From a virus: a DNA stretch of 20,886 bases. Positions 5,515 to 20,886 of the stretch are shown one piece after another. Within the stretch, counting starts at the first letter, position 1, and the number at the start of each line of letters is the position of its first letter. Both the position numbers and the translations under genes were made by a program. The DNA lies in IMG/VR virus record IMGVR_UViG_3300010373_000146, positions 1-20,886 of that record; one strand, written 5' to 3'. The notes under the pieces are model-generated. The model was not told where the DNA came from and did not search any database. It was given only the letters and a program-made list of their open reading frames with translations.

Positions 5515-7197
5515 ATCGAGAAGCGCAAGCGCCTGCAGCGGCGCCTGGACGCGCTGAAGTCTCATCGCAGCCAGTGTGAGATCCAGTGGCGCAAGATCTC
5601 CTGGTTCATCTCGCCGCGCCGCACTCGGTTCTTCACGACCGAGGCGGAGTCGTCGGGCCAGAGCAAGGAACAGCACATCATCAACAGCACGCCCACCACG
5701 GCCTCCCGCACGCTCGCGGCCGGGATGATGGCGGGCATCACGTCGCCGGCGCGCGAGTGGTTCCGGCTCACCACGCCCGACGAGGAGCTGGCCGACGAAG
5801 GGGACGTGAAGAACTACCTCTACGTCTCGATGAAGCGGATGCTCTCGGCGCTCGCCCGCGGGTTCGTCTACAAGGACCTGCACACGCTCTACGGCGACAT
5901 GGGGGACTTCGGCGTCGGCGTCGTCTTCATCGACTCCGACCCGGTCGACCTCATCCGCAGCTACTCGATCCCCATCGGCGAGTTCTACCTGGCGCAGGGC
6001 CCGAACGGCCGCGTGGACACGCTGTTCCGCGAGACCAGCCTCACCGTGGGCCAGCTCGTGAAGAAGTTCGGCATCGAGGCGTGCTCGAACCGCGTGCGCG
6101 ACCTCCACGGGCAGAACCTGCTGGACGAGAACATCCCCGTGATCCACGTGGTGATGCCGCGCGAGGACTACGACCCCGACAAGGCCGACTCGCTGAACAT
6201 GCCGTGGGCCTCATGCTGGTTCGAGGTGGGCGCCACCGAGATGGGACTGCTCGGCGAGAGCGGCTACAACGAGTGCCCCTTCATCGCGCCGCGCTGGAAC
6301 ACGACCGGCAACGACGTGTACGGCACGGGCCCCGGCCACGCCGCCATCGGCGACGCGATGACGCTCCAGCTCAAGGAGCGGAAGAAGAACCAGGGCATCG
6401 AGCGCATCGTGGACCCGCCGCTCATCGGGCCCAAGCCGCCCACGGGCAAGGCCATCTCGATGATGCCCGGCGCGCTCAACTTCTCGGAGGGCCCGGCCAC
6501 CGGCAAGCAGTTCGAGCCGCTGGTGGTGGTGCCGCCCGAGGCGATCTCGGTCATCGACAACTCGATCCGCCAGGACGAGCAGCGAATCGACACCGTCTAC
6601 TTCGCGAACCTGTTCCTGATGCTGAGCCAGGAGCAGGAGGGCGGCCAGCCCATCACCGCGCGCGAGGTCGCCGAGCGCGCGCAGGAGAAGCTGCTGCAGC
6701 TCGGGCCGGTGATGGAGCGGCTCGAGGGCGAGGCGCTCAATCCGCTGGTGGAGCGCATCTACGGCATCCTCAACCGCGCGGGCCGACTGCCGCCGGCGCC
6801 GGCGGTGCTGCAGGGCGCGAACTTGCTCGTCGAATACCTGTCGATCATGGCCCAGGCTCAGAAGGCCGTGGGCATGGGCGCGATCCAGCAGTTCGCCGCG
6901 TTCGTCCAGAACGTCGCCGAGGCCAAGCCGGAGGTCCTCGACAACGTGGACACCGACCAGATGGTGGCCGACGTGGCGGACATGCTCAGCGTGAACCCGC
7001 GCATCATCGTGGCGGCAGACAAGGTCGCGAAGCTCCGCGCCGCGCGTGCGCGCCAGCAGCAGGCGCAGGCGGCCTCTGAGCAGGCGATGGCGGGGGCGGT
7101 GGCTGCGAAGAACCTCGCGGGCGCGGACATGAGCGGTGACAACGCGCTCACGCGCCTCGGTGGAGTGCCTGCCGCGCAGGCCGGGAGCGTCCAGTGA
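5515..7197 (+). CDS. Portal (head-to-tail connector) protein
   Basis: Forms the dodecameric ring at one capsid vertex through which DNA enters and leaves. The portal signature is clear: EIQWRKISWFISPRRTRFF near the start, INSTPTTASRTLAAGMMAG and SPAREWFRLTTPDE, then the wing and stem region and a C-terminal alpha-helical barrel rich in Ala, Gln and Met. The length of about 560 residues fits T7 gp8-type connectors. The start is a problem: the first in-frame ATG/GTG/TTG is ATG 5725, which would remove about 70 conserved residues including the 'wrkisWFIsPRR' block. The reading frame is coding-like from about 5509. ATC 5515 sits eight bases after AAGGG (5502-5506) and is the best-placed initiation site; a one-base frame error after GTG 5496 is the alternative. 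The end overlaps the next gene (GTGA). Confidence 0.88.
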   Translation: MEKRKRLQRRLDALKSHRSQCEIQWRKISWFISPRRTRFFTTEAESSGQSKEQHIINSTPTTASRTLAAGMMAGITSPAREWFRLTTPDEELADEGDVKNYLYVSMKRMLSALARGFVYKDLHTLYGDMGDFGVGVVFIDSDPVDLIRSYSIPIGEFYLAQGPNGRVDTLFRETSLTVGQLVKKFGIEACSNRVRDLHGQNLLDENIPVIHVVMPREDYDPDKADSLNMPWASCWFEVGATEMGLLGESGYNECPFIAPRWNTTGNDVYGTGPGHAAIGDAMTLQLKERKKNQGIERIVDPPLIGPKPPTGKAISMMPGALNFSEGPATGKQFEPLVVVPPEAISVIDNSIRQDEQRIDTVYFANLFLMLSQEQEGGQPITAREVAERAQEKLLQLGPVMERLEGEALNPLVERIYGILNRAGRLPPAPAVLQGANLLVEYLSIMAQAQKAVGMGAIQQFAAFVQNVAEAKPEVLDNVDTDQMVADVADMLSVNPRIIVAADKVAKLRAARARQQQAQAASEQAMAGAVAAKNLAGADMSGDNALTRLGGVPAAQAGSVQ

Positions 7198-9513: not shown

Positions 9514-9990
9514 ATGGGACTGCGTGACCAGAACGTCATCATGTCGGACAGCCAGGACCTCACTGGCGCGGGCACCGGCGCCACCCTGTGCAGCAAGAGC
9601 ATCGACCTCTGGGGCGGCGCTTCGTCCGGCGGGCTCATCACCGACACCACCCTCCAGACCGACGTGAACGGCAACTCGCCGGCCCACGACCCCGGCCTGG
9701 CCGACATGGGCCTGGATGTGCGCGTGGACGCGGCCGTGACCAGCGCGGGCGCGGCGACGGTGCAGGCGCAGGTGATCACCGCCGACGACCAGGCGCTGAC
9801 CACCAACGTCACGATCATCCAGCAGACGGACGCGATCGCGAAGGCCACGCTGGTGGCGGGCTACCGCTTCAAGCTGGGCCGGCTGCCCCCGGGCATGAGC
9901 CAGCGCTTCCTGGGCGTCCAGTACAACGTCGGGACCGCCGCGCTCACCGCCGGCAAGGTCTCCGCGTCGCTCGTGGCCACCCCGCAGTAA
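9514..9990 (+). CDS. Bbp16-like capsid cement (decoration) protein
   Basis: A 158-residue protein starting at ATG 9514, five bases after AAGGAG (9503-9508). An in-frame GTG further upstream lies in the hairpin leader and is not used. The pattern IMSDSQDLTGAGTGATLCSK, SIDLW, then GLDVRVDAAVTSAGAATVQA, QVITADDQALTTNVTI and LVAGYRFKLGRLPPGMSQRF followed by LGVQYNVGTAALTAGKVSAS matches the beta-rich Bbp16-like family encoded directly after the capsid gene in BPP-1-like podoviruses, thought to stabilise the shell. It has no Cys pair or membrane segment. Identification is from recalled family pattern and position. Confidence 0.72.
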   Translation: MGLRDQNVIMSDSQDLTGAGTGATLCSKSIDLWGGASSGGLITDTTLQTDVNGNSPAHDPGLADMGLDVRVDAAVTSAGAATVQAQVITADDQALTTNVTIIQQTDAIAKATLVAGYRFKLGRLPPGMSQRFLGVQYNVGTAALTAGKVSASLVATPQ

Positions 9991-10016
9991 TCGGCTGTCC
10001 TTCGAGGAGCTGAGCC

Positions 10017-11121: not shown

Positions 11122-13905
11122 ATGGCCTCGATTCGGCAGCCCAGCTTCGCGAGCGGCGAGCTCGCGCCGCCGCTCTGGGGTCGCACCGACCTGCCGCGCT
11201 ATGCGGCCGGGCTGCGGCGCCTCTTCAACTTCTTCGTGAGCAAGCAGGGCAACGCGGTGTCGCGGCCCGGCGCGCAGTACCTGGGCACGGCGTCGCTCAA
11301 CACGGTGAACCTCAACGCGAACTCGCCGCCCGGCCTGCACCTGCCCACGGTGCTGGTGACGCAGGGTGCGGCGGTGCGGTTGATCCCGTTCTACTACTCG
11401 GACGACGAGACCACGCAGAACTACGTCCTGGTCTTTGGCGAGCAGTACCTGGGCATCCGCAAGAACGGCTCGGGGCTCACGTTCACGCTCACCGGATCGA
11501 TCCCGTACCACGCGGCAGATCTGCAGAAGCTCAAGTTCGCGCAGAGCGGCGACGTGATCACGCTGGCCTGCCCGGGCTACCCGCCCGCCACGCTCACCCG
11601 CGGCCTCTCCGGCACCACGGTCACGGGCAGCGAAAGCGACTGGACCTACGCGGTGCTGAGCTTCGACCGGCCCACGCCGCCCTCGCTGGTGGCCGGGCCG
11701 CCCTCGGGCGCGCGCATCATGGAGGCCTACTTCGGCACCGTCGATGCGCAGCACCCGGCGAAGGCTTGGGCGTGGCTGGTCACGGAGATCCGCAAGGACG
11801 CCTACGGCAACGTCTACGAGACGGCGCCGTTGCGCGCGAACGGCTTCGTCTGGAACGGGTCCCCGTGGAACCCGCTCATCACGTACAAGAACCGCACCGT
11901 CGTCTACATGGGCAACGTGCCCGGCCGGTCGAACACGTTCGATTACTGGTTCGCGCTCCACGATGGCGTGACCTCCCAGCCGCCGCTCACGAACGGAAAC
12001 CCGACCTCGGACTGGTATCCGGTGAGGAGCTACGACGGGTCACACACGTACGGCCTGGGCGACGTGATCTTGGACTCCGGCCCGGTGTTCCGGACCTCGC
12101 TGCAGGCCGGCAATCAGGGGAACGCTGAGACCAACACCAGCTTCTGGAGCGCGCAGTTCTCCGGCTTCACCTCGTTCCAGACCGACGACTACTCGCAGCT
12201 CGACGTGCAGGTGCCGGTGTACCCGGACATGCCCGTGCAGCTCTGGCTGACGGCCTCGAGCAATCCGCTCACGGACCCCAACTTCGTCGCCTTCCGGGTG
12301 TACCGCGGCCGCGCGAACCTCTTCGGCTGGGTGGGCGACTCCGCCGGCGGCTCGGTCTCGACCAACTTCTTCATCGACGACGTGGAGAACCCCGACTACA
12401 CGCTCCCGCCGCCGCAGGGGCTGAACCCGTTCCAGACCGGCGAGTACCCGAACTCGGTGACGTACTTCGCGGACCGCCGCGCGTTCGGTGGCACGAGCGG
12501 GAACGCGTCCACGGTGCGGCCGTGGTTCTTCTTCCTCTCGGCCGCGAGCGACTACTCCAACTTCGACCAGCACTACATTCCGCAGCCCGCGGACGCGCTC
12601 GTTGAGGCCCTCACCGCGCGGAAGAAGGAAGTCATCCGCTCGGTGGTTGGCGTGAAGAGCAAGCTCTTCGTGTTCAGCAACTCCGCGGTCTGGGGAGTGG
12701 GCGGCACCAACGAGTCGCCCATCGCGCCGGACAACGTCGACGCCGGCGTCGAGGTGGACATCGGCGCTGACTGGAACCAGCCGCTGGTGGTGGGCGGGCA
12801 CATCCTCTACGTGCGCGACAAGGGCACGGGCGTTCGCGCCATTCAGTTCGACTGGCAGCGCGGCGGCTTCGCGAGCTCGGACCTCTCGATCTGCGCCGAG
12901 CACCTGGTGCTGGGCCACGCCGTGGCGGATTGGTGCGTTGTCGAAGACCCCTGGAACCTGGTGTGGATCGTCCGCGACGACGGACTGCTCCTCAGCCTCA
13001 CCTACGCGCCGGATGACCAGCTTTGGGCCTGGGGCCAGCACCAGCTCGTCGTGGCCAACCAGCCGTCGACGGGCTACGGCGTGCCCAGCGGCATCGTGCA
13101 GTCGGTGTGCTCCATCCCCGAGGGCGACGAGGATGTGCTGTACCTCGCGGTGCAGGGCTGCGCCGCGGTGCCCTTCAACGGCGCAACCACGTACCGCGTC
13201 GGCGACCTGGTGGTCTCCGGCGGCCACTTCTTCCTGTCCAAGACCGCCGGCAACGTCGGCAACACCCCGCCAAGCGACGGCTCGAGCGACACGCATTGGT
13301 CGGGTACCACGACTCCTGTCGGGCCCGCTTGGATCTGCCGCCTCTCGACGCGTCTGATCACCACGCTGAAGCGGCCCGCGTGCGTCGATGCGTACGTGGA
13401 GTTCGACGGCAGCTACGCGCCCACGGACCAGGTGGGCGGGAGCCCAGGCGAGAACCTCGCAGGGCTCGCCCACCTCGAGGGCCAGCAGGTGATGGTGCAG
13501 TACGACAACGCCACGGACACCGCGGCCGCGGACACCTTCGGGCCCTACCTGGTGACCGGCGGCTTCATCGTGGCGGCACCGCCCACGCGCGCGTGCAGCC
13601 GCGTCTTCGTGGGCCTTGGCTACAACTGCGAGCTCGAACTCCTGGACCTGCCCGACGGTCGCACCAAGCGGAAGGTGGTGACCGAGGTCGGCCTCGAGGT
13701 GATCGGCGGCGGCGTGCTGCAGGCGGGGCAGTCGCTGGCCGACACGCTCAAGCCGTCGAAGGTGATGAAGCCGGGCGCGGATCTCCTGCGCGTCACGGTG
13801 GCCGGCTCCTGGAACACGGGCGGCCGCGCGGCGCTGCGTCAGACGAACCCGCTCCCCGTCACGGTGGTGGGCGTCACGCGCGAGGTGGACGCCGGTGACC
13901 TCTGA
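11122..13905 (+). CDS. Tail tubular protein B-like nozzle with two CBM-like modules
   Basis: Nozzle of the short tail, like T7 gp12, through which DNA leaves. ATG 11122 follows the adaptor stop by three bases and has GAGGGG upstream. The product is 927 residues, somewhat longer than T7 gp12. The N-terminus QPSFASGELAPPLWGRTDLP, YAAGLRRLFNFFVSKQGNAV, SRPGAQYLG is the classic nozzle opening; later EYPNSVTYFADRRAFGGTSG and FFFLSAASDYSNFDQHY are also typical. Two insertions, about 304-344 and 683-728, repeat the adaptor's small aromatic module: HTYGLGDVILDSGPVF...AGNQG...FW342 and TTYRVGDLVVSGGHFFLSK..AGNVGNTP...HW726. The end overlaps the next gene by 11 bases. Confidence 0.88.
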   Translation: MASIRQPSFASGELAPPLWGRTDLPRYAAGLRRLFNFFVSKQGNAVSRPGAQYLGTASLNTVNLNANSPPGLHLPTVLVTQGAAVRLIPFYYSDDETTQNYVLVFGEQYLGIRKNGSGLTFTLTGSIPYHAADLQKLKFAQSGDVITLACPGYPPATLTRGLSGTTVTGSESDWTYAVLSFDRPTPPSLVAGPPSGARIMEAYFGTVDAQHPAKAWAWLVTEIRKDAYGNVYETAPLRANGFVWNGSPWNPLITYKNRTVVYMGNVPGRSNTFDYWFALHDGVTSQPPLTNGNPTSDWYPVRSYDGSHTYGLGDVILDSGPVFRTSLQAGNQGNAETNTSFWSAQFSGFTSFQTDDYSQLDVQVPVYPDMPVQLWLTASSNPLTDPNFVAFRVYRGRANLFGWVGDSAGGSVSTNFFIDDVENPDYTLPPPQGLNPFQTGEYPNSVTYFADRRAFGGTSGNASTVRPWFFFLSAASDYSNFDQHYIPQPADALVEALTARKKEVIRSVVGVKSKLFVFSNSAVWGVGGTNESPIAPDNVDAGVEVDIGADWNQPLVVGGHILYVRDKGTGVRAIQFDWQRGGFASSDLSICAEHLVLGHAVADWCVVEDPWNLVWIVRDDGLLLSLTYAPDDQLWAWGQHQLVVANQPSTGYGVPSGIVQSVCSIPEGDEDVLYLAVQGCAAVPFNGATTYRVGDLVVSGGHFFLSKTAGNVGNTPPSDGSSDTHWSGTTTPVGPAWICRLSTRLITTLKRPACVDAYVEFDGSYAPTDQVGGSPGENLAGLAHLEGQQVMVQYDNATDTAAADTFGPYLVTGGFIVAAPPTRACSRVFVGLGYNCELELLDLPDGRTKRKVVTEVGLEVIGGGVLQAGQSLADTLKPSKVMKPGADLLRVTVAGSWNTGGRAALRQTNPLPVTVVGVTREVDAGDL

Positions 13906-14380
13906 GGCGCGAGTCCGGGACTACCTCGCCGGCGACGCCGAGCGCCTGGCCGCGGTGATGCGACCGGCCGACGCGGCGGAGGTGCAGGCCGAGACCGGCC
14001 ACGCTCCGCTCGAGGCGCTCCTCGAGTCGGTGCGGGTGTCCCGGAAGACCTGGGCGCTCGAGCTGGGCGGCGAACTCGCTGGGATCTTCGGGCTCCGCGA
14101 CGGCCCGCGGCAGTCGTTCCTCGCCCAGCCCGACTACATGGTGCCGTGGCTGCTCACCGGCGCCGCGGTGGATCGCCACCGGCGCGCGTTCTGGGCGACC
14201 AGCCGGCGCGTGATGGGCGCGTTCCTCGAGATGTACCCGGTACTCGCGAACCTGGTGGACGCCCGGTACGCGGCGGCTCTGCGGTGGGCGTGGCGCCTGG
14301 GCGGAGAAATCCACGACGCGGTGCCCATCGGGCCGTCCGGCGCGCTCTTCCACCCCGTCATTTGGAGGCGCCATGGGTAG
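13895..14380 (+). CDS. T7 gp13-like internal virion protein A (DUF2833, GNAT-like)
   Basis: A 161-residue protein from GTG 13895, overlapping the nozzle gene by 11 bases. The pattern YLAGDAERLAAVMRPADAAE, LGGELAGIFGLRDG, PWLLTGAAVDRHRRAFWATS, MYPVLANLVDARYAAALRWA, WRLGGEIHDAVPIGPSGALF, HPVIWRR is that of phage T7 gp13 and relatives, which have a GNAT acetyltransferase-like fold but a structural or assembly role: T7 gp13 is needed for proper core assembly, though it is not found in mature particles in all studies. Catalytic activity cannot be judged from sequence. It opens the ejection-protein cluster. Confidence 0.82.
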   Translation: MTSEARVRDYLAGDAERLAAVMRPADAAEVQAETGHAPLEALLESVRVSRKTWALELGGELAGIFGLRDGPRQSFLAQPDYMVPWLLTGAAVDRHRRAFWATSRRVMGAFLEMYPVLANLVDARYAAALRWAWRLGGEIHDAVPIGPSGALFHPVIWRRHG

Positions 14381-14912
14381 CCCTCTCGCACTCGGACTTC
14401 AGGGAGCCGGCCTCGGTACGGGGCTGGCGGGCTCGTACCTCCAGGCCAAGGCCGAGCAGCAGCAGCTCGCCGACAAGCAGGCCGCGGACCTTCAGAACCA
14501 GGACCTCGCCAAGATGCAGGCCGCGAGCGCGCTGCAGCGCGGCGGCTTCCAGGCGTTCCAGCTGCGCCAGCGCTCGGACACGCAGCAGTCCGAGCAGCGT
14601 GCGGGCTTCGCGGCCTCGGGCGTGAACTCCGGATCTGGCACGGCCGCGGCGGTGCAGGCGATCACCGGCGGCGTGGGCAACGCGGACGCCGAGCAGGCGA
14701 TGCACAACGCCGCGCAGCAGGCCTGGGGCTTCCAGGTCACCGCGAACCAGTACGGCGCCCAGGCCGAGCAGGACAAGCGCGCGGAGGGCCAGGTCCTCAC
14801 TGGCGCGGTGCTTGGCGGCATCGGCGGAGGCTTGGCCGGCGCCAGTCGCCTCTACGGCGCTGCCCGCGAAAACCTCGGCGGCGGCATCGGCGTTCAGCCC
14901 GGAGGCTTCTGA
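14373..14912 (+). CDS. T7 gp14-like internal virion protein B
   Basis: A 179-residue protein, close to T7 gp14 (196), from ATG 14373, which lies inside the end of the gp13-like gene, with GGAGG upstream. The N-terminal segment is hydrophobic and Gly-rich (LALGLQGAGLGTGLAGSYL), then a long Gln/Ala helix (AKAEQQQLADKQAADLQNQD), QRSDTQQSEQRAGFAASGVN, GSGTAAAVQAITGGVGNADA and a second Gly-rich end (LTGAVLGGIGGGLAGASRLY). This matches gp14-type ejection proteins, which are expelled first and form a channel in the outer membrane. Followed by a TGATG junction with the next gene. Confidence 0.78.
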   Translation: MGSPLALGLQGAGLGTGLAGSYLQAKAEQQQLADKQAADLQNQDLAKMQAASALQRGGFQAFQLRQRSDTQQSEQRAGFAASGVNSGSGTAAAVQAITGGVGNADAEQAMHNAAQQAWGFQVTANQYGAQAEQDKRAEGQVLTGAVLGGIGGGLAGASRLYGAARENLGGGIGVQPGGF

Positions 14913-17188
14913 TGAAGGTCCCGTACGACCCGATGTCGCAGGTGGCACCGCAGGGCACGCCCGACGTGCGCGCGCAGGTGATCACCAACCCCGGCGGCGC
15001 CCAGGCCGAGGCTCGCGGCGTGAGCCAGGTGGGCGCCGGCCTGGACGAGATGGCCGACCAGGTGGCGCGAGTCGCCCGGATTGCGAAGCGCCACGCGGAC
15101 GAGATCGGCGCGACCAATGCGGTCACGCGCTGGGAGAACGGCAACACCACGCTCGGCTACGGCACCACCGCAGCGCCGCAATCACAGCCGGACGCGACGG
15201 GCGCGAGCTCCGGCGGGCCAACGGCGGCGCCGGCGACGCCGCCCACCGACACCAACGCGCCGCACGAGCTGCCCAGCGGGCCGCCGGCCAGCGTCACCGC
15301 CGCGATCTCCGATCCCGACTCGAAGCTCCCGCAGCAGGGCTTCTTCAACACCAAGGGCATGGACGCGGCGAAGTATGCCGACCCCACGCTGCAGGCCATG
15401 GGCGCGAGCCAGGCGGAGATCGCCGCGGGCCTGCCGAACGACGAGCAGCGGCAGATCTTCCTCGAGCACTCCAACCAGCGGCTCGTGGACCTGCGTCGCC
15501 AGGTGATCCAGCACGCCACCCAGCAGCAGCAGGTGGCGCTCGAGCAGTCCACCAGTGCGGCGGTGGAGAGCTCGTTCGTCGCCATCAACAACGAGACCAC
15601 GCGCGCGGCCAACGCCGACGCGGCGATGACCTCGGTCGACACCATTACCCAGCCGGTGGTGGACCGCATCAACGCCATGTACCGCGGCCAGCCGGACGAG
15701 GCTGCGCAGAAGGTGGCCGGCTACAAGCAGGAGGTCGCGCTCGGCCTCGTGCAGCACTACATCGCCGCCAAGGACGCGACCGGCGCCCAGAAGGTGCTCG
15801 ACGCGCGCAAGGACGCGCTCGCCTTCGGGCCCCGCGGGGCGCGCGAGCTCGAGGAGCTGCAGAAGACGGTGTCGCTGCTCGGCGCCCAGCAGGACGGCGA
15901 GACCGCGGCCAACGAGCTCGTGGCCAACGCGAAGGGCAAGGGCGACCTCTACGACATGGCTCAGATCGCCGACGGGGCGATCCAGCGCGGGAAGGGCATG
16001 TCCAAGGAGCAGTTCTCGGCCTTCGACCAGGCCGTGGGCAAATGGCGCGGGCTCGCTGAGGATGCGAACAAGGCGAACGGCGCCAACCACTTCAACACCG
16101 CGCTCACCGCCCTGCAGAACCGCTGGTCCATCAACGACATCTCGCCCACGGATGCGACGTGGCTGCACGAGAACGACCCCAAGGGCTGGCAGGGCATCCT
16201 CGACGAGGCGGCGCGCCACGAGCGCGCCCAGGCCCGCGGGCAGAAGGTTGAGGAGACGCCGGATCAACTCCGGACGTTCTACGAGTTCAAGGACTCCATC
16301 GGCGACCTCAGCCCGGACGAGCTCGCGTCGGCCAAGCCCGGAAGCATCATCTCGTCGGCCGTGAAGATGGGCATCTCGCTGAAGCGCGCCGGCGAGCTCT
16401 CGGACTACCTGCTCAAGCTCAAGCACGACCCCGCGGCCGCGAACACGGGGCTCACGCCGTCGCAGAGCGACGTGATCAAGGACGAGCTGATCTCGGCCGG
16501 TTTCGGCGAGAACCACAACGGCGTGATGCGCATCAAGTCCAGCGCACTGCCGCTGCGCACGAAGCTGGAGCAGGAGGTCCTCAAGGAGCAGGGCACGCTG
16601 CGCGGTGCGTCCTCTGGCAAGGACAAGAAATACATGCTCGACGGGGACGACCTCCGGAAGTTCCTCGGGCCGGCCATCGCGCCCGTGGTCACCGAGACGC
16701 ACTGGTACAAGGCTGACGACACCAAGCCGGCGATCGAGACGCCGGGCTACAAGTCGCAGGCCGTGCCACAAAAGGACGCGGACCAGATCAGCGAGGCGCT
16801 CAAGGCTGCCGGCGAAGAGGTCACGCCAGCGAAGATCCGCCAGGTCTACGAGTCGCGCTCGGTCGCGCCCGCCGCGGCCCCGAGCTCCGGCGCAGCTCCG
16901 GCCGGCGGCACGGTGAAGATCGAGGACCTGGCCAAGGACCCCACGCAGGCGTCCCTGCTTGAGCCCGTGGCTCGCGCGGCGATCTCCCGGCTCAGCGGGA
17001 AGCCTGGCGAGCCCGACTTCGTGCCCGTGCAGCCGCGCGCGTCCCTGAAGCCGCCGGCGCGCCAGAAGATCGTGCTCCCCGAGATCCACCTGCCGGGGAA
17101 GGCGAAGCGGACCGAAAGCCCGCTGCCCGATGAGGACCAGCAGGCACTCGACGAGACCGCCTCGCTCACCAAGAACATGGGGACCTGA
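14912..17188 (+). CDS. Internal virion (ejection) protein at the T7 gp15 position
   Basis: A 758-residue protein, almost the length of T7 gp15 (747), starting at ATG 14912 in a TGATG overlap with GGAGG upstream. Residues about 75-125 are a Pro/Thr/Ala-rich spacer. From FFNTKGMDAAKYADPTLQAM the protein is almost entirely helical with TPR-like helix pairs (QQVALEQSTSAAVESSFVAI; DEAAQKVAGYKQEVALGLVQ; KVLDARKDALAF), compatible with the tubular core proteins that span the periplasm during ejection. The C-terminus about 635-720 is Pro/Ala-rich. I see no enzymatic motif. Identification depends mainly on order, length and helical character. Confidence 0.72.
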   Translation: MKVPYDPMSQVAPQGTPDVRAQVITNPGGAQAEARGVSQVGAGLDEMADQVARVARIAKRHADEIGATNAVTRWENGNTTLGYGTTAAPQSQPDATGASSGGPTAAPATPPTDTNAPHELPSGPPASVTAAISDPDSKLPQQGFFNTKGMDAAKYADPTLQAMGASQAEIAAGLPNDEQRQIFLEHSNQRLVDLRRQVIQHATQQQQVALEQSTSAAVESSFVAINNETTRAANADAAMTSVDTITQPVVDRINAMYRGQPDEAAQKVAGYKQEVALGLVQHYIAAKDATGAQKVLDARKDALAFGPRGARELEELQKTVSLLGAQQDGETAANELVANAKGKGDLYDMAQIADGAIQRGKGMSKEQFSAFDQAVGKWRGLAEDANKANGANHFNTALTALQNRWSINDISPTDATWLHENDPKGWQGILDEAARHERAQARGQKVEETPDQLRTFYEFKDSIGDLSPDELASAKPGSIISSAVKMGISLKRAGELSDYLLKLKHDPAAANTGLTPSQSDVIKDELISAGFGENHNGVMRIKSSALPLRTKLEQEVLKEQGTLRGASSGKDKKYMLDGDDLRKFLGPAIAPVVTETHWYKADDTKPAIETPGYKSQAVPQKDADQISEALKAAGEEVTPAKIRQVYESRSVAPAAAPSSGAAPAGGTVKIEDLAKDPTQASLLEPVARAAISRLSGKPGEPDFVPVQPRASLKPPARQKIVLPEIHLPGKAKRTESPLPDEDQQALDETASLTKNMGT

Positions 17189-20100
17189 TGGCCACCGACA
17201 ATCCGTACCTCGAGACGGTGCAGCGGATGTTCCCCCAGAACTCCGCGCCCGAGCCGCAGCCCGAGCAGGACCAGGGCGATGACGGCAACGAGCTCGCCAA
17301 CCCCAACGCGAAGCCGCGCGATGCGGACGCGACGCTGCGCAAGCGCGACGTGGACCCCAACAACCAGACCCCGGTGCTCGAGCCCACCCAGGCCGAGCTC
17401 GAGTCGATGGGCCTCGACCAGGACTACCGGAACCCCAAGACGGGCAAGGTCTCGCCGGGCGTAGCGATCCCCGACCAGGACCAGGAGCCGCAGCAGCCCG
17501 CGGAGCCGAACCCGTACCTGGCCACGGTGCAGAAGCTCTTCCCCAAGGAGGGCCAGCAGCCCGCGGCCACGGACGGCGGTGCCGACAACGACACGATCGG
17601 GCAGTTCCTCAACTGGCGCGCGCGCAAGCCGCAGTTCGACTCGGTCCAGGCGCTGGACGTGCTCCGCTACGCGGAAGCCTCGGGCAAGCCTGTCGACTGG
17701 GTGGCGGACCACCTGGACGACGTGCGCAAGAGCGTGGACGCCTCGCAGGTGGACCTGCAGGACCTCGCGCAGAAGGCGCCCGCGCTCCAGGACTACCTGG
17801 CCCGCCAGGGCGTCCGCGTCGACGCCCACAAGGACGACGTGCCGGTGCTGGCGCAGATCGAGGGTACGCTGGCCGACGCGGCCCACGCGGTGACGCAGGC
17901 GCCGCAGGCATTCGTAGACGCCTGGGGCGAGCAGGGGCTCATCTACCGGCAGTTTCTCGAGGCCAAGGGCATGGGCAGCGAGGAGAACCGCACCGCCATT
18001 GCGGCCGACAAGGCGGAGATCGCCGCGCGCCAGGACTACGGCGTCCACGGTGTGGTGGGCCAGGGCATCATCGGCGGCGTCAAAGCCATCCCCGTGATGG
18101 CGCTCGACTGGCTCGTGCGCAAGGCGGTGGGTTCTGCGATCGGTCGCCTCGCGCCCGTGGCCACAGACCTCGCCGGCGGCGGCCCAGAGAACCCCGTCGC
18201 CGACGTGGGCGCGGCCGGGACGGCCCTGGTGGGCGAGATCGCCGGACCCTCGGCAGCGTCCGCGGGCTTCAACTACGTCGAGACCCTGGGGCCGACGTTC
18301 GACGAGCTCTCGCAGCTCAAGGACGAGCACGGGCAGCCGTTCGACCCGCGGCTGGTGCGCGGCGCGTCCGAGTTCGTGGCCATGCTCAACGGCGGCGTGA
18401 TGGGCCTGGCGGGCCCGTTCGGCGGTGAGGTCTCGGGGCTCTCGAAGAAGCTCCTGCTGCGCGAAGGCGTCGACACCGCGAAGCGGTTCCTGCTCGAGCC
18501 GGGCGCGGCCGCGGTGGTGAAGCGGTTTGCCGCTCGGTACGGCGAGCACGAGCTCTCCGCGCTCTTCATGGGCGCGATGCAGGGCGCGATCGGCTCGGCG
18601 GGCTCCGAGGGACTGAAGACGCTCTACGGTCAGGACATCAACGAGAGCGCGCGCAACGTCATGGACGCGGCGTGGAAGAACGCTCTCAAGATGGCCAACG
18701 ACATGATGTTTGTGTCGGGCGCGAACGCCGGCCTGGAGACGTACGGCGAGGCGAAGCAGGCCGAGAAGCAGCGCGTGGTGTTCAAGGCCCAGGGTGACGA
18801 GGTCGCCAGCCAGCAAGGCGCCGCGCGGCTGCAGCAGCTCGTCGACCTGGCGCAGCAGTCCAAGACGCTCGGGAAGATGGCGCCCGGCGAGCGCGCCGAG
18901 CTCATCTCCTCGATGTTGCTCCACAAGGACGCGCCGGCGGAGATCCGCATCGACCGCCAAGCCTGGGACGAGCTCCACCAGCCCGAGAAGAAGGACCCGG
19001 CCAAAGCGGCGCAGGAGCTCACGGGCGACGACGGCGAGGCGTACGCCCACGCGAAGATCACCGGCGACCTGGTGGTGCCCACCGAGAAGTTCATGGAGCT
19101 GGCGGCGACCGATCCGGAGCGCGCCGCGAAGCTGCTGCCCGACACGCGCATCGCGGTCGACGACCAGAGCCCGCGCCAGATGCAGGAGGCGCAGGAGCAG
19201 CTGCAGAAGCGCGCGGCCGAGGTCGCCAAGCTCGAGCCGGGCGAGATGGAGGACAGCGCGCGCGAGGTCTACGAGGACTATCGCCGCAAGGCCGAGGCCG
19301 CGGGCAGTGACCCGAAGGAGGCCGACGCCAACGCGCGCCAAGTCGCCGGCGCCATGCAGAGCTGGGCGGAGCGCTTCCAGAAGAGCGGCTCGAGCGTCAC
19401 CGCTGCGGACCTCTACGACCTGCAGCGTGTGACCATCGAGGGCCCGCGCGGGCAGCAGCTCGAGCAGGAGCCCGAGACCATCAAGGCGCTCCGGAAGCGC
19501 TACGCGGCCATGCCGGAGGACGAGCAGAAGAAGTCGCTCTACATCGACCGCCTCACCGGGCTCTACAACGAGCGCGGGTACGAGGCGCGCGCGCACGACG
19601 AGTCCCGGCCGTACACCACCGAGGTCCAGGTGGCGCAGGCCAAGACCATCAACGACAAGCTCGGGCACGACGCCGGCGACAACGTGCTCAAGCTGTTCGG
19701 GAACGTGCTGAAGAAGAACGGCATCACCGACGCCGTGCGGCGCGGGAACACCGTGGCCTTCGACCACGCCACGCCTGAGGAGGGCAAGAAGATCGTCCAG
19801 GCGATGCGGGACGAGCTCGGCCACGACCAGGTGGTGACCAGCGGCACCGCGCGCGCGGAGGAAGGCGACAGCGGCGCGGACCGCCTGCAGCGGGCGGCGA
19901 AGGAGCACGACCGCCGCAAGACCGAAGGGCGCACGCCAGACAAGCAGGGCAAGACGAAAATCCCCGCGCGAGACGCTCCGTTCGCGGAGACCACCGACAC
20001 GGCCGCACTGAAAGCCCACCTCGAGGGCCAGGCGCGCCCGGAGACGGCCACCGTGTCACCGTCGCACGAGCAGGACTTCGAGCGGCTGAACGGCGGGGAC

Positions 20101-20886
20101 ATCTTCCGCGAGGCGAACCTCACGCCCGAGGGCCTGCTCAACGAGAACGGCTACCGGCTCGCCGTCGACGAGGCCAAGGAGCGCGCGAAGAAGACCGGCG
20201 GAAAGGTGCACTACCTCTCGGCCGACGTGCGCGGCGTCGGCGACATCAACAAGGCTTTCGGCAAGGGGCTGAGCTGGGAGGAGAAGGGCAAGCCCACCGA
20301 CGAGATCATGTCGGCGATCGCGGAGCAGATCGCGCGGCGCCCGGAGGGGAAGGAGTTCTTCATCGCCCGACCGCACGGCGACGAGTTCTACGCGGTGCAC
20401 GTCGGCGGGGAGGAGGCGCTCGAGGAACTCCACGATTTTTTCGACAACGCCGACCGCAAAGCTGCGAAGTCGCCCTTCTATCGGGAGGTTGTGCCGGCTG
20501 GCTCCCACGAGCCCACGCACGTTATCCTACAGCGTGGTCTGAGGATCGCCCACGGGACCGGAGAGACCTTCGATGAAGCCGACCGGCAAGCCCTCCCCGA
20601 AGCCAAGCTCGCCCAGGACAACCACCCCGACGCCGACGAGCGACCGGCCAAGCCCGAGCTCGTCCCCATCGACAAGTGGCAGCGGGTGGCGCGCGATCTC
20701 ACCAAGCGGCAAGGACATGAGCCTCAAAGAGTGGGGCGAGGACTTCGGGAAGAGGTTTCAGGAGGGCCTGGACCAGACGGCGGTGATGAGGGCGGAGGAA
20801 CGGGCGGCTCGGGCAGCGGGGGAGAACGTCCCCCGGATGAGGCTCGAGGAGCTGGAGAAGTGGTACGAGGCGAGGATGGCCAAGAA
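17188..20886 (+). CDS. Very large ejection/polyvalent protein (gp16 position) with two GGDEF-like domains, partial
   Basis: Starts at ATG 17188 (TGATG overlap) and stays open for 1233 codons to the window edge. A NPYLxTVQ-type motif occurs twice (5-16 and 108-119) in a disordered Pro/Gln-rich N-terminus. Residues about 140-270 are helical; about 285-420 are Gly/Ala-rich and hydrophobic (VVGQGIIGGVKAIPVMALDW), possibly membrane-active. A block GDLVVPTEKFMEL (about 626-638) is of a kind seen in large phage polyvalent proteins. A first GGDEF-like domain at about 784-900 has DRLTGLYNERGY and KTINDKLGHDAGDNVLK, but the signature loop is degenerate (RRGNTVAF, 852-858) and the metal Asp is Gln814. 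A second at about 978-1160 has LTPEGLLNENGY, the metal-site D1013, INK, and HGDEF at 1063-1067. T7 gp16's transglycosylase is not visible. Codon use degrades after about 20709, so the true end may lie near there. Confidence 0.8.
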   Translation, partial: MATDNPYLETVQRMFPQNSAPEPQPEQDQGDDGNELANPNAKPRDADATLRKRDVDPNNQTPVLEPTQAELESMGLDQDYRNPKTGKVSPGVAIPDQDQEPQQPAEPNPYLATVQKLFPKEGQQPAATDGGADNDTIGQFLNWRARKPQFDSVQALDVLRYAEASGKPVDWVADHLDDVRKSVDASQVDLQDLAQKAPALQDYLARQGVRVDAHKDDVPVLAQIEGTLADAAHAVTQAPQAFVDAWGEQGLIYRQFLEAKGMGSEENRTAIAADKAEIAARQDYGVHGVVGQGIIGGVKAIPVMALDWLVRKAVGSAIGRLAPVATDLAGGGPENPVADVGAAGTALVGEIAGPSAASAGFNYVETLGPTFDELSQLKDEHGQPFDPRLVRGASEFVAMLNGGVMGLAGPFGGEVSGLSKKLLLREGVDTAKRFLLEPGAAAVVKRFAARYGEHELSALFMGAMQGAIGSAGSEGLKTLYGQDINESARNVMDAAWKNALKMANDMMFVSGANAGLETYGEAKQAEKQRVVFKAQGDEVASQQGAARLQQLVDLAQQSKTLGKMAPGERAELISSMLLHKDAPAEIRIDRQAWDELHQPEKKDPAKAAQELTGDDGEAYAHAKITGDLVVPTEKFMELAATDPERAAKLLPDTRIAVDDQSPRQMQEAQEQLQKRAAEVAKLEPGEMEDSAREVYEDYRRKAEAAGSDPKEADANARQVAGAMQSWAERFQKSGSSVTAADLYDLQRVTIEGPRGQQLEQEPETIKALRKRYAAMPEDEQKKSLYIDRLTGLYNERGYEARAHDESRPYTTEVQVAQAKTINDKLGHDAGDNVLKLFGNVLKKNGITDAVRRGNTVAFDHATPEEGKKIVQAMRDELGHDQVVTSGTARAEEGDSGADRLQRAAKEHDRRKTEGRTPDKQGKTKIPARDAPFAETTDTAALKAHLEGQARPETATVSPSHEQDFERLNGGDIFREANLTPEGLLNENGYRLAVDEAKERAKKTGGKVHYLSADVRGVGDINKAFGKGLSWEEKGKPTDEIMSAIAEQIARRPEGKEFFIARPHGDEFYAVHVGGEEALEELHDFFDNADRKAAKSPFYREVVPAGSHEPTHVILQRGLRIAHGTGETFDEADRQALPEAKLAQDNHPDADERPAKPELVPIDKWQRVARDLTKRQGHEPQRVGRGLREEVSGGPGPDGGDEGGGTGGSGSGGERPPDEARGAGEVVRGEDGQE
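20560..20565 (+). promoter_or_regulatory. Shine-Dalgarno-like site for a possible overlapping gene
   Basis: GGAGAG lies seven bases upstream of ATG 20573, which opens a second frame inside the ejection-protein gene. Spacing is good, but a site in coding DNA can be chance. Confidence 0.3.
20573..20886 (+). CDS. Overlapping or frameshifted coding region, +1 relative to the ejection protein, partial
   Basis: A second + frame opens at ATG 20573 and runs to the window edge. Its first 48 codons give a Pro/Ser/Thr-rich sequence that looks like the shadow of the other frame. From ATG 20717 it reads as an ordinary protein: MSLKEWGEDFGKRFQEGLDQ, TAVMRAEERAARAAGE, VPRMRLEELEKWYEARMAK, with nearly all codons ending in G or C, whereas the ejection-protein frame there becomes Gly-rich with many codons ending in A or T. 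So real coding seems to pass from one frame to the other at about 20700-20717. This is either the start of the next gene (20717, with AAGGA only one base upstream, or 20573), or the same protein continuing after a one-base indel or a +1 frameshift. Function unknown. Confidence 0.5.
   Translation, partial: MKPTGKPSPKPSSPRTTTPTPTSDRPSPSSSPSTSGSGWRAISPSGKDMSLKEWGEDFGKRFQEGLDQTAVMRAEERAARAAGENVPRMRLEELEKWYEARMAK

Follow-up and report, generated by a model that had tools for sequence, protein, structure and literature searches.

Iyer et al. (2017, PMC5512222) list the GGDEF domain among the predicted effector domains of polyvalent proteins. There it is described as "not very widespread", with an example from a firmicute prophage, and the production of cyclic nucleotides is proposed as a way of disturbing the responses of the host. 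Annotations of Yuavirus and Vojvodinavirus also include small standalone GGDEF proteins (PMC8471281). Among ejection proteins, models place the C-terminal part of T7 gp16 (gp16-C) in the cytoplasm of the host, and ejection of internal proteins is described for epsilon15 (PMC8954989). The subject of this analysis is a tandem of two GGDEF copies in a giant protein encoded at the end of IMG/VR virus record IMGVR_UViG_3300010373_000146, a stretch of 20,886 bp referred to as the window. Copy 1 is degenerate, copy 2 keeps the active-site signature, and the pair lies in a slot that holds other effector domains in related phages. The best explanation, to which a probability of about 0.5 is given, is an ejected cyclic-dinucleotide synthase in a swappable slot, in which copy 2 would be catalytic and copy 1 would be its non-catalytic partner.

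As in the polyvalent proteins of Iyer et al., the GGDEF domains of the window belong to a giant multidomain protein which is expected to be packaged and delivered. Unlike those examples, the window protein combines a degenerate and a signature-intact copy in tandem, takes a podoviral gp16 position, and uses a slot swapped with ADP-ribosyltransferase (ART) and PBECR domains. YuA gp44 and the Vojvodinavirus GGDEF proteins share with copy 1 a compact phage-type sequence (~30% identity to copy 1), but they are standalone proteins of ~150 amino acids with an intact SGDEF or AGDEF, encoded in the pre-terminase region, and do not form part of a virion protein. In four Yuavirus and Vojvodinavirus records the small GGDEF gene adjoins a KlcA/antirestriction gene, and in phage BL8 a GGDEF reading frame lies partly in an unannotated gap upstream of a called "anti-restriction protein". 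The cyclases PleD, WspR and DgcB resemble both window copies in the palm fold and in the alignment of active-site positions. The window protein differs from them in having no sensory domain and no product-binding RxxD I-site upstream of GGDEF, which is absent from both copies and from the profile of the phage family described below, as well as in its apparently dead copy 1 and in a copy 2 without equivalents of K332 and H340. GGDEF in phage polyvalent proteins is already known in kind; new are the tandem of a dead and a near-intact copy, the evidence for slot swapping in podoviruses and the breadth of the family. No paper linking a diguanylate cyclase with an internal virion protein was found in the literature.

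The two GGDEF copies and their active sites

The features of the giant protein that bear on the tandem are as follows (all on the + strand).
17188..>20886, +: giant protein, most likely the ejection (polyvalent) protein at the gp16 position; open reading frame (ORF) with 1233 amino acids visible, 3′ end cut by the contig end
19483..19977, +: GGDEF copy 1, residues ~766-930 (Pfam PF00990, family profile, residue map, AlphaFold2 and Foldseek)
19627..19629, +: Q814, in place of the metal-binding Asp (PleD D327; profile residue map)
19738..19761, +: RRGNTVAF (851-858), in place of the GGDEF loop (profile residue map)
20110..20682, +: GGDEF copy 2, residues ~975-1165 (phrog_14602, family profile, AlphaFold2, Foldseek)
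20224..20226, +: D1013, metal-binding Asp position (profile residue map)
20299..20301, +: D1038, guanine-recognition Asp position (PleD D344), preceded by an insert (profile residue map)
20374..20388, +: HGDEF (1063-1067), active-site hairpin (residue map; model strands 97-103 and 106-112)

The original prediction described two GGDEF-like domains at 19537-20700, which corresponds to residues 784-1171, and the motifs that it quoted all lie at the residues it gave. The Pfam GGDEF model matches the whole protein with E=1.9e-8, above the curated cut-off and best over residues 785-844. The proposed check against PF00990 held for copy 1 alone (2.6e-7, 31 bits, curated cut-off 23.8) but not for copy 2, which on its own gave no Pfam match and no PDB sequence match. 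In-register matches to the family phrog_14602 were obtained for copy 1 at 9.2e-7 and for copy 2 at 1.6e-3.

No close relatives came up when viral contigs were scanned with single sequences, namely the whole ORF, copy 1, copy 2 or the nozzle protein, and a tblastn comparison of copy 2 with named phages returned chance matches only. A DNA pattern, K.IND..GH..GD, run over viral contigs yielded 119 stretches, a few of them within giant phage ORFs. The alignment of four giant-ORF GGDEF stretches, used as a query, then recovered 69 viral loci, most of them within ORFs of ~1500 amino acids or longer with one GGDEF domain each. The family profile was built from 58 distinct phage GGDEF domains, with the window left out. 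Against this profile, copy 1 reaches 69.2 bits and copy 2 reaches 35.2 bits, compared with 10.6 for the best of 2000 shuffles of both segments. Q814 and D1013 fall on its metal-binding Asp column, and its GGDEF column is occupied by RGNTV in copy 1 and by HGDEF in copy 2.

Both copies are predicted to adopt the nucleotidyl-cyclase palm (GGDEF) fold, which the models support rather than independently prove. AlphaFold2, run with the family alignment, gave a predicted local distance difference test score (pLDDT) of 82.7 and a predicted template modelling score (pTM) of 0.75 for copy 2, and 81.9 and 0.67 for copy 1. Among the Foldseek matches listed against the PDB, both copies hit only diguanylate cyclase GGDEF domains; these include PleD and DgcB and, for copy 2, also the Dcsbis GGDEF domain. 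The structural check set out in the original prediction, a palm fold in both segments with PleD as the reference, is thus borne out in alignment-guided models. That copy 2 is not a GGDEF domain at all, and that its HGDEF and D1013 resemble the signature by chance, could be argued from its silence in the Pfam and PDB sequence searches. This explanation is hardly credible in view of the profile score in register with the motifs, the phrog_14602 match and the modelled fold.

Active-site positions are compared with those of PleD, by the residue numbers and roles of that enzyme (D327, K332, N335, D336, H340, D344, D/E370 and E371). Copy 1 carries DRLTGLYNERGY at 787 and KTINDKLGHDAGDNVLK at 819, and has lost both metal ligands: Q814 stands at D327 and N854 at D/E370, with T855 next to it (GGDEF to RGNTV). 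It retains K819, N822, D823, H827 and D831, of which N822 and D831 are guanine-contact positions. As had been proposed, copy 1 is predicted from these residues to be a pseudo-domain unable to bind metal. In copy 2, the metal ligand positions D327 and D/E370 and the catalytic E371 are kept as D1013, D1065 and E1066, and the guanine contacts N335 and D344 as N1021 and D1038.

A candidate third GGDEF domain at residues 498-557 (window 18679-18858) scored 16 bits, above all 2000 shuffles of residues 1-760. The match was judged coincidental, because relatives share the region in which it lies and yet nothing comparable is seen in their first 780 residues.

An effector slot in podoviral ejection proteins

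The neighbouring genes and the other parts of the giant protein place the tandem in a structural module.
5725..7197, +: portal / head-tail connector (PF12236 2.5e-130; 42% identity to the Carin1 portal)
13895..14380, +: internal virion protein (phrog_308)
14373..14912, +: gp14-like internal virion protein (phrog_418 4e-24; weak PF24072 T7_gp14, below cut-off)
14912..17188, +: gp15-position protein, lysozyme/endolysin-type (phrog_10475 7.9e-11, phrog_1044 4e-7)
17656..17880, +: LPD22-type N-terminal module of the giant protein, residues 157-231 (relatives' LPD22 profile, 22-28 bits)
18028..19374, +: conserved middle region of the ejection protein, residues 281-729 (phmmer)

The portal is nearest to that of Cobetia phage Carin1, followed by epsilon15-type and BPP-1 phages. 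The gene order runs from the nozzle through the phrog_308 and phrog_418 internal virion proteins and the lysozyme-type protein to the giant ORF, and a similar order is found in Carin1, BPP-1, Limnohabitans DC33, ctQRb9 and PfDIW6. The giant ORF comes after the gp14-like and gp15-like genes, in agreement with the gp16 position assigned to it originally. With its LPD22-type N-terminus and effector slot, this multidomain ORF of the structural module also has the make-up of a polyvalent protein. The giant ORF is most likely the gp16-position ejection protein, of polyvalent type, of an epsilon15/BPP-1/Carin1-like podovirus, and it would be carried in the virion and ejected. Similarly to T7 gp16, it is the third gene of the ejection set and is large and modular, and in T7 the C-terminal part is inferred to reach the cytoplasm. 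Unlike T7, the window protein has no match to the T7 gp16 family in Pfam and PHROG scans, and it is the gp15-position protein that carries the lysozyme-type domain.

The LPD22-type module was found with a profile made from the Pfam-called LPD22 domains of relatives, for which the best of 2000 shuffles reached 10.6 bits; Pfam itself did not call LPD22 in the window protein, where the module is diverged below its detection. The middle region aligns by phmmer to residues 170-588 of G001, a family member described below, and to 310-730 of Carin1, while the PfDIW6 match covers window residues 542-730. Homology to the giant proteins of Carin1 (gp32), G001 and PfDIW6 spans about residues 281-760. At the N-terminus, the 12-residue motif NPYLxTVQxxFP is found at residues 5-16 (window 17200-17235) and again at residues 108-119 (window 17509-17544). 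Repeated short peptides of different sequence also start the giant proteins of BPP-1, PfDIW6 and ctQRb9, and the repeated motif is possibly a core- or scaffold-docking motif.

The giant proteins of Carin1, BPP-1, DC33, ctQRb9 and PfDIW6 are 2039-3209 amino acids long and begin with LPD22. The first four share with the window protein the gene position, the N-terminus and the slot, which differs in content: downstream of LPD22 lies PBECR5 in Carin1, PBECR1 in BPP-1, ART-PolyVal in DC33 and ctQRb9, or no known domain, in contrast to GGDEF in the window. LPD22 was found in 14 of 42 portal-related viral records. ART accompanies it in nine of the 14, in eight of these 547-1040 codons downstream of LPD22, and none of the 14 has a GGDEF match. 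In the window protein, the GGDEF pair begins 609 codons after the LPD22 start.

LPD22 is combined with a single GGDEF domain in eight family proteins, at residues ~616-768 in seven of them, and the seven relatives with one GGDEF in the same slot all have the metal Asp and the GDE residues. One of the eight, G001, has overlapping ends and is a circular genome of ~42.4 kb with the gene order of the window; its single intact GGDEF domain, at residues ~768-967, is collinear with copy 1. These comparisons show that podoviral ejection proteins have one swappable effector slot for an RNase (PBECR), an ADP-ribosyltransferase or a GGDEF domain, filled in the window by a GGDEF pair. Many other phage giant proteins have this enzyme-delivery slot filled, and the tandem represents a rare way of filling it.

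Proposed activity and competing explanations

According to the proposed mechanism, the giant protein would be packaged in the virion and then pass through the tail, and its slot region would enter the host cytoplasm, the destination also inferred for gp16-C of T7. Such a destination fits the contents of the slot, as ART, PBECR RNase and GGDEF domains all act on cytosolic substrates. Several ejected chains may pair via their GGDEF domains. Copy 2 would convert guanosine triphosphate (GTP) to a cyclic dinucleotide, most likely cyclic di-guanosine monophosphate (c-di-GMP), with copy 1 as a non-catalytic partner or scaffold, and the product would bias host second-messenger signalling within the first minutes of infection. 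Delivery of an enzyme at infection, already envisaged in the original prediction, is made plausible by the ART, PBECR or single GGDEF domain held by the slot in related phages. Conservation across the family also speaks for catalysis, with the metal Asp kept in 57/58 domains, the guanine Asn in 58/58, the guanine Asp in 55/58 and GDE in 56/57.

Several observations weigh against an active synthase. Copy 2 has lost the equivalents of K332 (G1018, at the phosphate-contact position), D336 (K1022) and H340 (K1026), and its KxIND..GH..GD segment is not conserved. An insert of 8-9 residues interrupts its nucleotide-binding segment before D1038, the tail Gly is absent, and the copy sits on a very long branch (2.5) in the family tree. 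Canonical cyclases require two competent domains face to face, and a dead copy beside a weak one may reflect decay. Since aligned GGDEF domains guided the AlphaFold2 models, the fold evidence is not fully independent. The contig does not include the C-terminus of the giant protein, and neither virion proteomics nor biochemistry was found for any family member. The family counts for the metal Asp, the guanine residues and GDE are biased upward by the search patterns, which included [DN][SG]LK[WAR]IND and [YW][HL][LIA][SHG]GDEF. The description of copy 2 as near-active stands for D1013 and HGDEF on their active-site columns, but not for the segment with the three lost contacts and the insert.

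The same losses in copy 2, together with the missing metal ligands of copy 1 and the long branches of both copies, speak for a possible, if doubtful, explanation in which both copies are catalytically dead. The pair would then be a duplicated or joined GGDEF effector in decay, or would be kept as a GTP or c-di-GMP binder or a structural part. The absence of a second GGDEF copy from every other family member found, with most loci read only ~4 kb either side, points in the same direction. Random decay would not favour what is seen in copy 2, which at 19-28% identity retains exactly the metal, catalytic and guanine residues. The tree fits in-phage duplication and separate acquisition of the copies alike.

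In another explanation, the pair would act as a sponge or decoy that captures nucleotides used in host defence, such as those of the cyclic-oligonucleotide-based antiphage signalling system (CBASS), Pycsar or type III CRISPR. Copy 1 does have guanine-contact residues without metal ligands, and phage proteins delivered early are, in general, often directed against defence. However, the family keeps catalytic residues and not a binding-only site, as do the seven LPD22 relatives whose slot holds one GGDEF domain, the I-site for product binding is found in neither family nor window, and PADLOC, like Rfam, gave no match. Such a role is very improbable, and the CBASS decoy or binder suggested originally finds nothing in the analysis that points to it.

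For the preferred reading, an ejected synthase with copy 2 catalytic, the odds of catalysis in the window phage itself are about even, given the loss of several secondary contacts in copy 2 and its strong divergence. The predicted activity looks likelier in the single-copy family. The idea of a tandem regulator/enzyme pair gained no parallel from other phages, and it would apply to the window protein alone, because no other family member found is tandem. A wider form of the idea, in which the pair is a single-chain pseudo-heterodimeric cyclase acting before phage gene expression and the giant-protein family is a common virion-delivered second-messenger synthase, is unlikely.

The wider family and its meaning

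Several records deposited as phages and matched by copy 1, among them Listeria phage LM 4-14-1 and scaffolds of Bacteriophage sp., were excluded as probable host contigs, because their cyclases are of bacterial-looking membrane or response-regulator type. The top matches in the genome-contig scan resemble ordinary cellular cyclases.

A type I inorganic pyrophosphatase (InPase) domain is present in 9 of 24 giant phage GGDEF proteins, the count being made among GGDEF proteins only, and it could remove the pyrophosphate that a cyclase releases. One viral contig of 24.5 kb (G005) has equal-scoring GGDEF matches at 9601-10011 (+) and 14484-14894 (-); the opposite-strand pair suggests a palindromic assembly artefact. 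At the start of the window, a GC-rich tandem repeat occupies 15-241, with CCGCCGACG-type units of 9-33 bases, open in several frames, and it may mark the point where the assembly broke.

The 58-domain family, in which catalytic residues are intact in almost every member, provides concrete single-copy candidates, including the circular podovirus genome G001, for a direct test of the 2017 prediction. If the domains are active, phages would inject a signal-making enzyme either along with their DNA or before it, and cyclic-dinucleotide signalling of the host would be rewired prior to transcription.

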